From Planctomycetota bacterium (GTDB lineage: Bacteria > Planctomycetota > UBA1135 > GCA-002686595): 64,000 nucleotides of DNA. How positions within the stretch are numbered: position 1 is the first letter of the stretch; the number at the start of each line of letters is the position of its first letter. Positions 39,774 through 63,373 of this stretch are shown piece after piece. Position numbers and translations under genes: made by a program. Location: positions 1 through 64,000 of the forward strand of contig DUCM01000002.1 in the NCBI GenBank assembly GCA_012959785.1, in the 5' to 3' direction. The notes under the pieces are model-generated. The model had not been told where the DNA came from. It saw nothing but the letters and a program-made list of their open reading frames with translations, and searched no databases.

Positions 39774-41150
39774 ATGACTGCCCTGCCCCTTCCTCAGCCG
39801 CGAACCCCGGTTACGGCTCTCGTTGTCGCTGCCCTCGGTGTGGCTTCGTGCGCGACCTACCAGGCCGCGCCCATCGACGCCGAGGCGCTTCTCGAGGAAC
39901 TCGCGGCGGTGCGTTGGCACGGAGTCGAACTCGAGGCCAAGACAGGGCTTGGCCCCGATGACCTGGCAGGCTTTGCCCTCACTCACAACGCCGACCTGCG
40001 GATCGCCCGGGCGGAACTCGAAGTGACCCGGGCAGAGCTCATCGAAGCCGGCTTGTTGCCCGAGCCCACCCTCAGTTGGGATGCCATGGATGTTCTCTCG
40101 GCCGCCATCGTTGGTGAGTCGACGACCAGCCGCGATTTCTGGTCGGGCTTGGGCATCTCGTTCCAGCTGCCGAGGCCGGGCGAGTTGGCGGCCCGCAAGG
40201 GAATCGCGCTTTGGCACATCGAAGAGGCGCGCGGGCAGCTTGCCATGGCCGAGTGGGCCCTCGCGCGCGGCGTCTATCTGGCCTTCGAGAATCTCGCCGT
40301 GGCGCGCCGACTCGGCGAACAGAACAGAGAGCTCCTGACCCTCGCCGAGAGCACGGCCGATTATTTTCAACGAGCCCGCGAGGCGGGCGTCGCCACCGCC
40401 ATCGAAGCAGCCCTGGCCCGCGGAGAGGCCTTGAAGTTGAAGCGCGTGGGCCTAGCCCTCGTGGCCCGAGAAAGGCGCGCCCTGTACGACTTGAACGCGC
40501 TGCTCGGGTTGCTTCCGGGCACACCACTCAACCTGAAAAATGCCACACGCATCAAAGCTGCACTCGTACAGCTCGCGCCTCTTTGCGAATTGACCAGTGC
40601 CCTGGCCAAGATGCGGCCCGACCTCGCCCGCAGGCTCGCCGCCTACGAGGGCGCCGAAGCAGACCTGCGCCTGGCGATCGCACAGCAGTTCCCGACCATC
40701 GGTATCGGTAGCGGTATTTCCATCCAGCCGGGCCTCTTCAGCCGCTTCAACCGAGCCGCCATCGCCAGCGCGCGGACGCGCCGGGCGCGTCTCCGGGAAG
40801 AGTACCGCGCAGCCCTCTTCGAGGCTCGCCATAGCCTGCACGCTGCCTTCGCCAGCTGGAGCGAGGCCCGCACCAATCTCGAATTCATCGAAAATGAACT
40901 GATCCCCAACGCAGAAGAGAGCCTATCCCTGGCCGAGATGGCATTCGGCGAAGGAGTGGCCACGGTGGTTCAGATCCTCAATGTGCAACGCGCTCTGGTC
41001 CGTGTGCGCACCAACCACATCGAAGCCCAGGCCCAATACAGCCGCGCGGGCTGGACCCTGCTGGCCGCCAGCGGCGCCATTTTGCCGCGCTCCGGCGCTG
41101 ACTTCTCCGTTAGCCCTGCTCCCGCAACGACAAGCGATCCCGTCCGATGA
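39774..41150 (+). CDS. czcC: Outer-membrane efflux lipoprotein, CzcC/TolC family
   Basis: A 458-residue TolC-like outer-membrane factor. The signal peptide ends VAS before Cys26, so it is a lipoprotein. The body is two repeats of long heptad helices (DLRIARAELEVTRAELIEAGLLPEPTLSW and ARTRRARLREEYRAALFEARHSL). It would form the outer-membrane exit duct of a metal RND pump. The stop overlaps the adaptor start by 4 bases. CusC-type would be equally acceptable; the family is clear, the metal is not. Confidence 0.85.
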   Translation: MTALPLPQPRTPVTALVVAALGVASCATYQAAPIDAEALLEELAAVRWHGVELEAKTGLGPDDLAGFALTHNADLRIARAELEVTRAELIEAGLLPEPTLSWDAMDVLSAAIVGESTTSRDFWSGLGISFQLPRPGELAARKGIALWHIEEARGQLAMAEWALARGVYLAFENLAVARRLGEQNRELLTLAESTADYFQRAREAGVATAIEAALARGEALKLKRVGLALVARERRALYDLNALLGLLPGTPLNLKNATRIKAALVQLAPLCELTSALAKMRPDLARRLAAYEGAEADLRLAIAQQFPTIGIGSGISIQPGLFSRFNRAAIASARTRRARLREEYRAALFEARHSLHAAFASWSEARTNLEFIENELIPNAEESLSLAEMAFGEGVATVVQILNVQRALVRVRTNHIEAQAQYSRAGWTLLAASGAILPRSGADFSVSPAPATTSDPVR

Positions 41151-42565
41151 TGCACCCTCACTCCACCGCCCAGTCGCGTCTGCATTCGCTCTCTCTGGTC
41201 CTCTGCCTGGCCCTCTCCGCCGCGTACCTCGGCGCTTGCTCCCAGTCAGAGCACGAGGACCATGAGGATCACGAGGCCGAGCATGACGAGCATGAGGCGG
41301 ATCAAGACAGCCACGGAGTCGTAGAACTGACGGCCAGCCAACTCTCAGCCGCAGGGGTCGAAGTGCTCGAAGTCGGCCCTGGTGAGATCCTTGAACAACT
41401 AACCCTCTCGGCGGTGGTCGCGGCCAATATGGATGCCGTGCAACATGTCAACCCGCGGGTGCCCGGAATCATCATCAGCATCGAAAAGCATCTGGGCGAA
41501 CAGGTGGAGAAGGGCGACCTGCTCTGCACCCTGGCCAGTGTCGATCTCGGCGCCGCCGCCGCGGAGTGCTTGCGCGCCAAGGCTCTGGTCAGTTCCGCCG
41601 AGAAGAGCCTCGAGCAATCTCGCGCCCTCTTTGAACTGCGCATCGACACTAGCACGCGCGTGATGGATGGCGCCGTCGCCTCCAATCAAGCCATCTTCGA
41701 CCTCGAACAGGAACTGCAAGCCAAGGGCGTCTCCACCGTGCGGCCCCTGATCGAGGCCGAGCGCACCCTCAAGAATTCAATTCTCGAGCGCGAACGAGTC
41801 CTCACCGACCTGGCCGCCAAGCGCGACGAGAAGCTCTTGGAGAGCATGGTCGACCTACGCGAGAAGCGCATCCTCGCCACCGCATCCGAGAACCGCCTGC
41901 TGGCCCTGGGCGTCGAACCCGCAGGACTCAACCAGAGCTCTGACCTTGTGCGCGGCATCTACCGCATCCATGCCGCCCAGCAGGGAATCGTTTCCGCGCG
42001 CCACATCACTCCCGGAGAATTCGTCAACGGGATGAGCGAGCTGTACACCATTCAGGACCTCTCCAGTGTCTGGATTGTGGCCTCGGCCTACGAGACCGAT
42101 CTACGCCACATTCGCGTGGGGCAGCGGGCCTTCGTGCATCTGAATGCCTTCCCCGACCTGCAACTGTGGGGCGAAGTGTCCATGGTCGAGTACGAGATCG
42201 ACCGCGCCACCCGCGCTGTGGGAGTGCGCATCGAACTGGACAACCAACAGCTCGACAGTTGGCCGGAACAATTCCCCTTGCGTCCGGGGATGTTTGGCCG
42301 CGTCGAAGTCGTCACCAGCCGCCGCCAAGCCGAGGTGTGCGTACCCGAATCCGCCATCGTCCACGGCGATGATGGCGACGCCGTCTTTGTCGAGACCGCA
42401 AAGGGAGTCTTCGAGCGCCGCGCCGTAAAGGTGCGCGGCGGAATCCATGCTGTTGTCGAGGTGCTCGTGGGCCTCAAGGCGGGAGACCGCATCGCCGCAT
42501 CGCGGACATTCATGCTCAAGTCCATCGAACGGCAGGCAGAGCTGGGTGGAGGCCACTCCCACTAG
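41147..42565 (+). CDS. czcB: RND efflux membrane-fusion adaptor, CzcB/CusB type, His-rich N terminus
   Basis: A 472-residue adaptor. Its lipoprotein signal ends GAC at Cys31, followed by a His/Glu/Asp-rich stretch, DHEAEHDEHEADQ, likely to bind Zn, Co or Ni in the periplasm. The rest is a typical HlyD/CusB fold: lipoyl-like IEKHLGEQVEKGDLLCTL, coiled coil, and beta-barrel (VNGMSELYTIQDLSSVWIVA). It ends in GGGHSH, again metal-binding. Start from ATGA overlap with the preceding gene; 21 bases to the pump gene. Confidence 0.9.
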   Translation: MMHPHSTAQSRLHSLSLVLCLALSAAYLGACSQSEHEDHEDHEAEHDEHEADQDSHGVVELTASQLSAAGVEVLEVGPGEILEQLTLSAVVAANMDAVQHVNPRVPGIIISIEKHLGEQVEKGDLLCTLASVDLGAAAAECLRAKALVSSAEKSLEQSRALFELRIDTSTRVMDGAVASNQAIFDLEQELQAKGVSTVRPLIEAERTLKNSILERERVLTDLAAKRDEKLLESMVDLREKRILATASENRLLALGVEPAGLNQSSDLVRGIYRIHAAQQGIVSARHITPGEFVNGMSELYTIQDLSSVWIVASAYETDLRHIRVGQRAFVHLNAFPDLQLWGEVSMVEYEIDRATRAVGVRIELDNQQLDSWPEQFPLRPGMFGRVEVVTSRRQAEVCVPESAIVHGDDGDAVFVETAKGVFERRAVKVRGGIHAVVEVLVGLKAGDRIAASRTFMLKSIERQAELGGGHSH

Positions 42566-42586
42566 GTTGGAATCTCAAAAACTAGC

Positions 42587-45688
<3,102 letters not shown>

Positions 45689-60572: not shown

Positions 60573-61751
60573 TTAACGCTCGACTGACAGGGAAACTGCG
60601 TTGCCGCCACCCAGGCAAAGCGAAGCCATGCCGGTCTTGGCGTCGCGGTGTTGCATGGCGTACAGCAAGGTGGTCAGGATGCGCGCGCCAGAAGCTCCGA
60701 TGGGGTGGCCGATGGCCACCGAACCGCCGTTGACATTGACCTTCTCTGGGTCGAGGTCGAGCTTGCGGGTGAGCGCGATAGCCGCCGCGCTGAAGGCCTC
60801 GTTGACTTCGTGCAAGTCAAAGTCGCCGAGGGACATGCCGGCCTTCTTGGCGCAAGCGGGCATGGACTTCTCGGGCGCCATCATGACCCACTCGGGGGCA
60901 CAGCCCCCGGTGGCGTAGGCTGTGATGCGGGCCATGGGCGTGAGGCCCAGGGCGGAGGCACGCTCGGCGCTCATGACCACCAAAGCCGCGGCGCCGTCGT
61001 TGATTGAGGAAGCGTTGGCGGCGGTCACGCTGCCGTCAGGTTTGAAGGCCGGTCGCATACCGGAAATACTCTTCGCAGTCATGCCACTGCGCACATTCTC
61101 GTCGCACTCGAAGGCCAACGCCTCTTGCTTGCGGCGCGGCACCATGACTGAGAAGCGCTCGTCGTCAAAGCGGCCGGCGATATTGGCGGCCTCCGCTTTT
61201 TGGTGGCTGCTCGCGGCATACTCGTCTTGAGCGGCGCGGGTGATATCAAACTCCTCGGCCACCTTCTCCGCCGTCAGGCCCATGTGGAAGTCGTTGTAGA
61301 TGTCCCACAAGCCATCGCCCACCATGGAATCGATCAGCTCACCATGGCCGAGGCGCACACCATCGCGAGCTTGGGGCATCAAATAGGGAGCGCGGGTCAT
61401 GTTCTCCATGCCGCCGGCGACAATGATCTCGGCGTCGCCGGCCTTGATCGCCTGAGCGGCGAGCATGACCGCCTTGAGTCCCGAGCCGCAGACCTTGTTG
61501 ATGGTCAGGCTGCCCACGCTGTCGGGCACGCCGGCGGCGCGGGCGGCCTGGCGGGCTGGGTTCTGACCGAGGCCGGCGCTGAGTACATTGCCCAGGATCA
61601 CCTCGTCGACCGACTCTGCCTCGACTCCGGCGCGGCGCAGGGCTTCCTTGACGGCCAGCCCGCCAAGCTCCGGCGCGCGAAAACCGGCCAGAGAACCCTG
61701 GAACTTGGCGACGGGAGTGCGGCAAGCGCTGACGATGACGACATCTCTCAC
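60573..61751 (-). CDS. Thiolase family acetyl-CoA acetyltransferase, first gene of the B12-mutase operon
   Basis: A 392-residue thiolase with Cys88 in [26 protein letters not shown] and CLGGGNA. It heads a ten-gene minus-strand operon (thiolase, hydroxyacyl-CoA dehydrogenase, acyl-CoA dehydrogenase, MeaB, mutase large, mutase small, HTH, acyl-CoA dehydrogenase, MBL hydrolase, binding protein). It would split or build acetoacetyl-CoA. A promoter lies at 61852-61880. Confidence 0.93.
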
Positions 61752-61986: not shown

Positions 61987-62031
61987 GTAGCCGCTTGCAT
62001 GCCCTGGCCCGCTTCTTCAAGCCCCACCCCC

Positions 62032-62715
62032 ATGCCCTCCAAGACCCTCCTGATCGCCTTTTTCCTCGCCTGCGCATGCGCCGGGCCCGGAGCCGGCCCT
62101 GCATCCGATGCGGCCGCGGTCACGCTGCGGGTGGCAGGCTTCGTCGAGGCCGCGGGCATCACCTGACTGGGCTGACCCAATCGGGTTCAGGAGGCCCTGG
62201 AAGGGTCGCCAGGCATCCTCTCGGTGGAGTTCGACATCTCCGCCGAGCGTTTTCACATCCGCCACGACCCTCGCCGCATCTCCACCGCTGGGGTCCTCGC
62301 CATCGTGCGCAGGTTGGGCTATGAGCCCAACGAGCTGACCGATCCCACCCCCGTTCGGGCCGTCCTCGAGGGCATCGACCCCGCCCTGCTGCCAGCGGAC
62401 TTGCGCACCCTCTTCGCTCGGGCCAAGGAGCGCGGCTGCGGCCTTCTGCTCGATTTCGTCGCCCCCGGCTGAGGCGCCTGCCAAGAGATGGATAGCGTGA
62501 CCTATCCAGACCCCCTGGTGCGAGCCGAACTCGAGCACTGGATCGAGCAGCAACTCGATGTGACGCTCGTCACCGCAGTGGCCGAGCTTTTTGAAATCAA
62601 GGCGGTGCCCATGGCGCTCCTGGTGAATGCCGAGGGCCGGATTCTGGCACGCATTCCAAACTTTGTCGCTCCGGCTGCCTTTGCGGCCCGCTTGCGAGAC
62701 GCGAGAGAGCGTTAG
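62032..62715 (+). CDS. Selenoprotein with three Sec residues: UxxU HMA domain plus UGAC thioredoxin-like domain
   Basis: One frame of 228 codons (227 residues, TAG stop) interrupted only by TGA at 62164, 62173 and 62470 (residues 45, 48, 147). Residues 1-21 are a signal peptide (TLLIAFFLACACAG), perhaps lipidated. Residues about 32-100 are a heavy-metal-associated domain: GIT-U-LG-U-PNRVQEALEG sits where HMA domains have GMTCxxC. Residues about 140-227 are thioredoxin-like as in DsbD-type domains: LLLDFVAPG-U-GACQEM, then cis-Pro193 in KAVPMALL. All three TGA fall on redox or metal-ligand cysteine positions. An in-frame ATG at 61999 is an alternative start. Metal reduction or transfer in the periplasm is inferred. 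Confidence 0.88.
62191..62220 (+). promoter_or_regulatory. SECIS-like stem-loop for the first two Sec codons
   Basis: GAGG pairs with CCTC (62191-62194/62217-62220) and CCTGG with CCAGG (62196-62200/62209-62213) around loop AAGGGTCG. The loop GGG starts about 27 and 36 bases after the two TGA codons, in the usual bacterial SECIS range. A second hairpin, 62172-62190 (CTGACCC/GGGTTCAG), lies between. Confidence 0.6.
62489..62508 (+). promoter_or_regulatory. SECIS-like stem-loop for the third Sec codon
   Basis: TGGATAG, loop CGTGAC, CTATCCA: a perfect 7-base-pair stem starting 16 bases after TGA 62470-62472. The second loop base is G, as bacterial SECIS elements require. Confidence 0.68.
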
Positions 62716-63373
62716 AATAGGGCTCCCAAGAAGCGACGCCTTCGAGAACCCGACCAGCAACGCCATCACGCCCAACGATCCCAACCCCGGCTCCGAACCC
62801 GGCCTGGATGTTGAGTTGCTGGCGCGGGCGCGCAGCGGCGACAAGGAGGCCTTGCAGGTGCTCTGCAATCACATCGAACCGCGCCTGCGGCGGGCGGCGC
62901 AAAAGCGACTCGGGCACCTGCACGAAAAAGTCAGCGTCTCCGATGTCCTGCAGTCGACCTTCATCGACATCGTGCGCGGCGCGGAGAGCTTGCCTCAGGA
63001 GTCGAGCGAGAACCTCGAACGCTGGAGCCTGCGCGTACTCGACAATAACATACGCGACCTGGCGCGTTACTTCACCGCCGAGCGCCGCGACCGCTCCAAG
63101 GAGCAAGGCCTCGATGCGGAGGCAGCGAGCCGCGTGCCGGCGCGGCGGCCCTCCCCCGCCACGGAGCTGATCCAGACCGAAGATGTGACCCGCCTGGCCC
63201 TGGCCATGGCGGAACTCACCAAGGACTACCAGCGCATCCTGCAACTCTTCATGCGCCCCGATTTCAGCCACGAACTCGCGGCGCGCACCCTCGGACGCTC
63301 CCTGGGCGCTTCACGAGTCCTGCTCGCTCGAGCACGAGCCGCGCTGCTCGCCAAGCTGGAAGAGCAAGGCTAA
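62627..63373 (+). CDS. ECF-type RNA polymerase sigma factor (start uncertain)
   Basis: A sigma-70 ECF protein. The recognisable part begins near 62804: DVELLARARSGDKEALQVL, with the sigma-2 region (SVSDVLQSTFIDIVRG) and sigma-4 helix (DYQRILQLF ... LAARTLGRSLGASRVLL). The only canonical in-frame ATG is at 62627, inside the selenoprotein; starting there adds about 59 residues of unlikely sequence. A start after the TAGAAT at 62713-62718 would need a rare codon. The stop shares one base with the kinase ATG (TAATG), so sigma and kinase are coupled. This pair is typical of planctomycete one-step signalling. Confidence 0.75.
   Translation: MPRAGFWHAFQTLSLRLPLRPACETRESVRIGLPRSDAFENPTSNAITPNDPNPGSEPGLDVELLARARSGDKEALQVLCNHIEPRLRRAAQKRLGHLHEKVSVSDVLQSTFIDIVRGAESLPQESSENLERWSLRVLDNNIRDLARYFTAERRDRSKEQGLDAEAASRVPARRPSPATELIQTEDVTRLALAMAELTKDYQRILQLFMRPDFSHELAARTLGRSLGASRVLLARARAALLAKLEEQG

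Follow-up and report, generated by a model that had tools for sequence, protein, structure and literature searches.

A Planctomycete Gene with Three In-Frame TGA Codons, Predicted to Encode an HMA–Thioredoxin Selenoprotein, and Its Multi-TGA Relatives

In a stretch of 64,000 nucleotides from a planctomycete genome (assembly GCA_012959785.1, contig DUCM01000002.1; hereafter, "the window"), a reading frame containing three in-frame TGA codons is confirmed, which is read here, with very high confidence, as the gene of a selenoprotein. The predicted protein combines a leader, an HMA domain with a UxxU motif, and a thioredoxin-like domain with a UxxC motif (U, selenocysteine—Sec; Table 1). Comparison with relatives and inspection of the genome's own gene content demonstrate, at the level of sequence, that the frame is selected through all three TGA codons, that relatives either retain these codons or have Cys in their stead, that the Sec machinery is present, and that the predicted downstream hairpins are conserved; by this comparison, selenium incorporation is near certain. 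The best explanation of the protein's role, favoured with moderate confidence, is that of a surface protein with three Sec residues, in which the UxxU motif of the HMA domain would hold a soft metal such as mercury(II) and the UxxC motif of the thioredoxin-like domain would reduce this site or strip the metal from it.

Table 1. Coordinates and supporting evidence of the features described (window positions, unless a locus is named).
Feature	Position	Strand	Basis and remarks
Predicted three-Sec selenoprotein gene	62032..62715	+	227 codons + TAG; leader, HMA (UxxU), linker, thioredoxin-like (UxxC)
Hydrophobic N-terminal leader	62032..62109	+	Cys after FLA; read by eye
HMA domain, residues 40–98	62149..62325	+	PF00403 31.5 bits (cut-off 24.8); CopA/ATP7B alignment; AF2 secondary structure; Foldseek ATP7B/CopA
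TGA, predicted Sec45, first metal ligand of UxxU	62164..62166	+	U in 37/37 aligned rows; aligns with first Cys of GMTCxxC
TGA, predicted Sec48, second metal ligand of UxxU	62173..62175	+	36 U, 1 Cys in 37 rows
Predicted bSECIS hairpin, HMA pair	62191..62209	+	Loop UGGAA, 22 nt after TGA48, 31 nt after TGA45; one mismatch in the window copy
Thioredoxin-like domain, DsbD-gamma type, residues 121–224	62392..62703	+	NF001419; Thioredoxin_7; PDB DsbD-gamma E 5.2e-6; Foldseek 1vrs_D E 1.6e-8
TGA, predicted Sec147, first residue of thioredoxin UxxC	62470..62472	+	18 U, 19 Cys in 37 rows; at least two changes on the tree
Table-11 ORF remaining after the last TGA	62488..62715	+	75 aa; database copy P0036, 72 aa
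Predicted bSECIS hairpin after TGA147	62489..62508	+	Stem UGGAUAG/CUAUCCA, loop CGUGAC, 23 nt after TGA
Six- and five-TGA relatives	L058:5526-7280 and L053:6526-8001	+	UU pair (SGAETUUPTTRF) behind PDZ-like part

Reading Frame and Coding Evidence

The frame opens with ATG at 62032 and closes with TAG at 62713; it contains zero internal TAA or TAG codons and is traversed by TGA at 62164, 62173, and 62470, corresponding to residues 45, 48, and 147. A preliminary description made from the letters alone had stated that the frame is open except for these three codons and that protein similarity continues on either side of them. Both statements hold, the latter on the basis of an HMA match above cut-off, thioredoxin-like matches, and TGA-bearing relatives. 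When the gene was compared with six relatives carrying three TGA codons, in three segments each and including the segments after each TGA, divergence was largest at third codon positions in 16 of 18 comparisons; a single relative, G292, is the source of both deviations (one tie, one exception). Since this third-position excess is found in all three segments, the reading is selected as protein in all of them.

The expectation that gene callers would report three short ORFs was borne out in part: the table-11 ORFs do end at 62166, 62472, and 62715, but the database search revealed just the C-terminal stub of 72 amino acids (P0036). An antisense ORF (62017–62868) was rejected as a candidate, given that the domain matches and the codon-position signal belong to the plus frame (the antisense ORF was given no test of its own).

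Domain Organization

Residues U45 and U48 align with the two Cys residues of the GMTCxxC metal ligands in CopA and ATP7B, and the best PDB matches of the HMA part are copper ATPases. For the C-terminal half, the scores of thioredoxin-like Pfam families lie just below their cut-offs (PF13899, Thioredoxin_7, 23.9/27 bits; PF13098, 23.5/27 bits; PF00085, 20.8/23.5 bits), with the fold being matched, and the DsbD model NF001419 gives 35.8 bits against a cut-off of 330 in a match limited to residues 121–224. An AlphaFold2 model based on a 14-row alignment, in which Sec was modelled as Cys (pLDDT 85.5, pTM 0.63), shows one part resembling HMA and another resembling thioredoxin; pLDDT falls below 50 in residues 39–46, and the model does not settle how the two domains are arranged. 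Foldseek returned DsbD-gamma (E 1.6e-8), with ATP7B and CopA domains lower in the list. Clearer lipobox-like motifs than that of the window copy were noted by eye in three relatives—LWAC (G061), LVAC (G064), and LAAC (G123).

Relatives and Exchange of Sec with Cys

Near-full-length relatives sharing 27–46% identity occur across genera and families. Among 154 whole genomes of the window's order, 47 were matched at E ≤ 1e-5, in many cases through a single generic domain, and the two-domain protein with in-frame TGA is present in 13, the own genome included; in 11 of these it lies in one stretch, and in G083 and G084 the near-full-length match is split over two adjoining stretches. Three other genomes of the order possess the identical three TGA codons (G061, E 2.4e-51; G064, 1.4e-49; G123, 2.0e-41). 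At the phylum level, at least 31 of 392 genomes, own included, match at E ≤ 1e-10, which is a lower bound because at most seven candidates were scored per genome. Alignment across both domains was possible for 29 of the 30 other phylum genomes, which, together with eight rows from the order, constitute the 37-row alignment used throughout. It omits the partial match in G449 (no TGA), one-domain matches, second matches of G385, G383 (two), and G173, and six HMA–thioredoxin rows already contained in another alignment, A2 (G056, G057a, G057b, G051, G083, and G084); these six rows show the thioredoxin Cys in 6/6 and U at the compared HMA in 5/6, with loss in G057b.

All 37 rows share U at residue 45, and the single Cys at residue 48 is found in G296. 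Residue 150 is Cys in 36 rows and Ser in one. The 18 Sec rows at residue 147 fall in two places on the tree (14 and 4), and 1% of 200 bootstrap trees need a single change. The preliminary proposal that all TGA codons fall on Cys positions is, thus, supported by relatives for residues 48 and 147. None of the 37 aligned rows has Cys at residue 45; because U is found there in every aligned row, its Cys equivalence rests on the HMA superfamily alignment with CopA and ATP7B. Cys-containing homologues across the TGA sites, the search for which had been recommended, accordingly exist for residues 48 and 147, and both residues 45 and 48 correspond to GMTCxxC ligands.

A homologue search with the full three-Sec protein returned none at E ≤ 1e-3, and two scans of genome contigs found none either; a profile search yielded 15 proteins, the majority being thioredoxin parts of the Cys type.

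A pseudogene or a sequencing error, with three TGA codons disrupting a Cys gene, would likewise show three interruptions of its frame, and the window copy is devoid of an operon partner. This reading is rejected as practically negligible in probability: TGA stands at matching codons in other genera and families, no internal TAA or TAG has accumulated, and selection acts on the codon positions, so that conservation already refutes it.

Two variations were observed among the relatives. In a clade of three (G331, G436, and G306; loci L117, L118, and L119), a fourth TGA directly follows the IPDT motif of the thioredoxin half, a place at which Arg is found in the sister row G278. Thioredoxin-like proteins that stand alone, with one TGA (WUGAC/WUGPC) and no HMA domain, are present in G058, G059, and G060 (L066, L067, and L068), with an ORF that looks enolase-like by eye adjoining the gene in G058 and lying ~2 kb off in G060.

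Selenocysteine Machinery and Use of TGA

The window's genome (3.67 Mb, 24 contigs, 90% complete) contains all four components whose presence had been suggested as a check, namely selA (476.7 bits; cut-off 268), selB (321.7 bits; cut-off 242), selD (316.6 bits; cut-off 125), and a tRNA-Sec (72.7 bits; cut-off 47), the latter called by ARAGORN as tRNA-SeC with anticodon tca (TCA). Of the two circumstances named beforehand as speaking against Sec, a lack of this machinery and a lack of Cys homologues, neither applies. The selD gene (L063 9792-10739; G000:C21:344791-345738) carries an in-frame TGA (CAGU) and is itself a predicted selenoprotein gene; a folding energy of −26.5 kcal/mol was obtained for the 66 nt from this TGA onwards, and selA lies ~1.6 kb upstream.

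A genome-wide reassignment of TGA to Trp or Cys would equally account for the read-through that is required here. TGA had been described as a normal stop in most genes of the window, and indeed 27 of 42 long ORFs end at TGA; these ORFs were picked by codon composition and called with TGA as a stop, and the count therefore lends support to normal use but does not prove it. In addition, the residue aligned in relatives is Cys, not Trp, and a dedicated tRNA-Sec is present along with selA, selB, and selD. Given the Sec machinery and the Cys exchange, reassignment is rejected as extremely improbable.

In the window's order, Sec use looks near universal, with selA matches in 145 of 154 genomes at E ≤ 0.001 (over cut-off in 139); for this reason, co-occurrence of selA with the gene is uninformative. 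Among the nine genomes without a selA match is G057, which is 64% complete and contains a six-TGA frame; G060, from the same genus, has a full selA match.

Predicted Read-Through Hairpins

According to the published bSECIS model, the hairpin loop lies 16–37 nt after the UGA codon, a G occupies one of the first two loop positions, and the minimum free energy is −7.5 kcal/mol or lower (as given in the available part of PMC13188914). Because the loop of the predicted HMA hairpin is located 22 and 31 nt downstream of the two HMA codons, a single hairpin lies in the published range for both. The best perfect stems of the window reach −6.8 (HMA) and −7.1 kcal/mol (TGA147) as opposed to −7.5 of the model, with position and loop fitting, and 8% of random window positions attain such energies. 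Taken alone, the window hairpins are unremarkable. Folding of the single sequence gave no significant hairpin in the window (z −0.01, −0.54, −1.79), which made comparison necessary.

In 13 rows, 85.7% of the cells of the seven-pair HMA stem around UGGA are paired, with three pairs changed on both sides. Among 500 shuffles, the observed value was reached by 0 for this percentage, by 2 for the covariation score, and by 6 for cells changed on both sides; two of the five covariation measures are not unusual (pairs changed on both sides, 49/500; further pair types, 302/500). At least five of the seven pairs are kept in 31 of 37 rows, a conservation to which amino-acid constraint contributes as well. 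Of the six rows with fewer pairs, four offer a different hairpin at a suitable distance, and a good one is lacking in G107 and G114.

The six-pair stem after TGA147 shows 91.7% paired cells in eight Sec rows and two compensatory pairs, a result matched by 20 of 500 shuffles. In ten Cys rows, the hairpin is absent, 33.3% of the cells in the same columns being paired. When 46 rows were scanned for the best hairpin conforming to the model, the median was −6.2 kcal/mol in 21 Sec rows versus 0 in 25 Cys rows (Mann–Whitney p 1.6e-4, uncorrected for kinship). In this strict scan, four of the 21 Sec rows lack a hairpin (G385, G268, G253, and G175), and three Cys rows reach −5.8 or better.

Larger Relatives and Database Stubs

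The number of Sec residues varies with architecture: two to four are predicted in single HMA–thioredoxin proteins, four in tandem-HMA proteins, five in PDZ-UU-HMA-thioredoxin proteins, and six in HMA-HMA-thioredoxin-PDZ-UU proteins. G064 encodes a PDZ-like part with a UU motif followed by HMA(UxxU) and Trx(U), with five TGA codons in 492, and G057a encodes HMA(UxxxU)-HMA(UxxU)-Trx(CxxC)-PDZ-UU, with six TGA codons in 585. Four TGA codons each are found in G056 and in G051, where the frame is cut by the contig end. These counts refer to codons within a single open frame; translation in one piece is probable, and is supported by the UU part being common to both domain orders. In G057b (L051:3690-4703, minus strand), the second HMA domain has lost both Sec residues (TPASEP) as well as the hairpin, and represents a natural control.

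In the database, 70 clustered proteins match the C-terminal profile at E ≤ 1e-6, in a search that admits short proteins only. All of them start with Met—63 at the MD of MDxxTYP, three at MTYP, three slightly earlier, and one further in—and in 69 the first residue lies no more than about ten positions downstream of the last TGA, the TGA upstream of each being presumed. These findings are compatible with widespread planctomycete poly-Sec metal traps, in which a UxxU HMA domain and a (seleno)thioredoxin with two to six Sec residues would form a mercury-capture arm that is annotated as stubs; we give this broader picture an even chance.

Gene Neighbourhood and Nature of the Metal

The window gene stands alone between a thiolase-like gene (60573–61751, minus strand) and a sigma-factor-like plus kinase-like pair on the plus strand (names assigned by eye), and no MerT, CopZ-N, CsoR, or MerA was found in the 15 kb around it (locus L062). 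In its own genome, neither MerT (in a search equally silent in 14 control genomes) nor a convincing true MerA was found; the best MerA-like gene is a dihydrolipoyl dehydrogenase and was rejected. Consequently, mercury has to be argued from the relatives.

The HMA–thioredoxin loci number 44, comprising the 37 alignment rows, the six A2 rows, and the second G385 copy. Of these, 34 were covered for neighbours (353,553 bp; 3–16 kb per locus; tblastn E ≤ 1e-6), ten with short loci only having been left out (G154, G275, G196, G373, G317, G204, G173, G314, G341, and G303). A MerT, CopZ-N, CsoR, or MerA neighbour is present in 15 of the 34 loci; as four of them (G061, G057a, G107, and G087) supplied the queries, the independent count is 11 of 30. 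By tblastn, MerT-type neighbours occur in nine loci (G061, G114, G056, G057a, G174, G436, G306, G383, and G171), CopZ-N in eleven, CsoR in seven, and MerA in one (G087), where it scores 504 bits against a cut-off of 454. Pfam and NCBIfam models confirm MerT-HMA in G061, G056, and G057, and zf_CopZ in G061 and G107. Metal-sensing repressors of the CsoR/RcnR type (PF02583) are located beside the gene in G087 and G107. The MerT-HMA gene and the three-TGA gene of G061 are co-oriented, the latter beginning 20 bases downstream of the former. In G107, a CopZ-N/MerT-like/HMA reading frame passes in frame into the gene, its MerT match of 32.3 bits falling slightly short of 32.9. The remaining 19 loci, some on short contigs, are without a mer-type neighbour. 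The same queries gave zero matches elsewhere in the own genome (156,863 bp covered), a control that is weak because this genome yielded no MerT.

With MerT, CopZ-N, CsoR, or MerA beside the gene in relatives, mercury is the likeliest cargo, and we consider the mercury reading somewhat probable on this comparative evidence. The same selenoprotein might instead carry copper(I) or silver(I), as a CopZ-like chaperone at the surface that contains a selenothioredoxin of its own and feeds copper efflux. Several observations fit such a role: the copper ATPases as best PDB matches of the HMA part, an 831-aa frame with two tandem HMA domains over cut-off on contig C10 of the own genome and a small HMA ORF nearby, the CsoR/RcnR type of the repressors in G087 and G107, and the want of both MerT and a true MerA in the own genome. 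A heavy-metal RND efflux cluster in the window (39774–45688), which consists of a CusA/CzcA permease (TIGR00914, 1170.9 bits; cut-off 701), an adaptor with a His-rich stretch (RND_mfp, 138 bits; cut-off 94.9), and a weakly matched outer-membrane subunit, would suit copper equally well. Metals are, however, not distinguishable by HMA similarity, and the recurring neighbours are of the MerT type, once with a MerA over cut-off; a copper or silver cargo is, hence, judged rather unlikely.

Proposed Function

In the preferred mercury-binding scheme, each TGA would be read as Sec via SelB and a bSECIS hairpin, with one hairpin serving both HMA codons and one the thioredoxin codon. Guided by its leader, the protein would cross the membrane as a lipoprotein and probably remain attached to the cell surface. 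There, the HMA domain may hold a soft metal ion, either Hg(II) or one of like chemistry, between its two selenols, and the thioredoxin-like domain may reduce those selenols or strip the metal for hand-over. Its partner in the present genome would be an exporter of the RND or P type; in those relatives that possess a MerT/CopZ-type importer, this importer would take that role. That selenols may serve as ligands of mercury, and a thioredoxin as reductase or stripping agent, is general chemistry.

Should the protein mainly be a redox enzyme, the thioredoxin-like domain would do the work, the HMA domain would be a docking module, and the metal would be incidental. The DsbD-gamma-like character of the domain, seen in sequence and fold, and the one-TGA thioredoxin relatives of G058–G060, which dispense with HMA, are in keeping with this, but it is the UxxU motif of the HMA domain that is near invariant (37/37 and 36/37 rows), Sec147 being exchangeable with Cys, and mer-type genes adjoin the gene in relatives. 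A mainly redox role is, thus, improbable.

Selenium has an affinity for mercury, and, if the proposed metal-binding role is true, bacteria would exploit this affinity in a dedicated binding site. The family appears to be largely missing from annotation. Its relatives with Sec147 or Cys147, with and without the hairpin, are natural pairs for testing what Sec adds to a thioredoxin. With one hairpin lying within reach of two UGA codons that are nine bases from each other, the gene also offers a direct test of a question in SelB decoding.

Comparison with Known Systems

One related system is MerP (TIGR02052), an exported, periplasmic mercury-binding HMA protein with a CxxC motif and no thioredoxin domain. 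It resembles the three-Sec protein, for which export is predicted, in being an HMA protein of this kind, and relatives of the latter have MerT-type neighbours; it differs in having CxxC instead of UxxU plus thioredoxin, and the three-Sec protein scores 16.8 bits with its model (cut-off 92.55). The MerT/CopZ fusion-like heavy metal transport selenoprotein (NF045683) also unites selenium and mercury-type transport in one system, but is a MerT-type transporter without a thioredoxin domain; neighbours of the HMA–thioredoxin genes reach 49–108 bits against its cut-off of 375.

A 2026 review lists 119 prokaryotic selenoprotein families and subfamilies, including a UxxU metal-binding protein with two Sec residues and UxxC thioredoxin types; in the available part of this source, a small multi-Sec subset contains two to three Sec residues (PMC13188914), compared with up to six in the proteins described here, if our reading is true. 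The UxxU (seleno)protein (NF041115, an equivalog model of 74 positions) is listed there with reference 60, a paper on Olavius algarvensis symbionts. It likewise has an HMA-type domain in which both metal ligands are Sec, two in all, but is a single domain of 74 residues, to which the three-Sec protein adds a selenothioredoxin domain and a leader, scoring 33.4 bits against a cut-off of 95. The DsbD C-terminal (gamma) domain and the thiol:disulfide interchange selenoprotein (PF13098 UxxC) share the fold and the CxxC/UxxC active site; as given in the available catalogue text, the latter has one Sec and no HMA domain, and the three-Sec protein is without the DsbD membrane part. The Trx7/PDZ (seleno)protein (NF041199) and TsoB (NF045694) have PDZ or DsbD-C parts in common with the three-Sec protein or its five- and six-TGA relatives, but the scores are 28–72 bits against cut-offs of 300 and 805, the TsoB cut-off is not reached by the three-Sec protein, and their motif is CxxU or UxxxxU rather than UxxU-UxxC or UU.

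An HMA–thioredoxin protein with three Sec residues is absent from the 119-family catalogue in the available part of PMC13188914, and a literature search for an HMA–thioredoxin selenoprotein revealed nothing matching, with the Olavius paper and two papers by Haft, outside its scope, possibly containing something close. The initial suggestion that this combination is undescribed as a family is, within that part of the catalogue, upheld, though each half has selenoprotein relatives (NF041115 and thioredoxin_2 UxxC); the protein, thus, represents a new architecture assembled from known selenoprotein domains.
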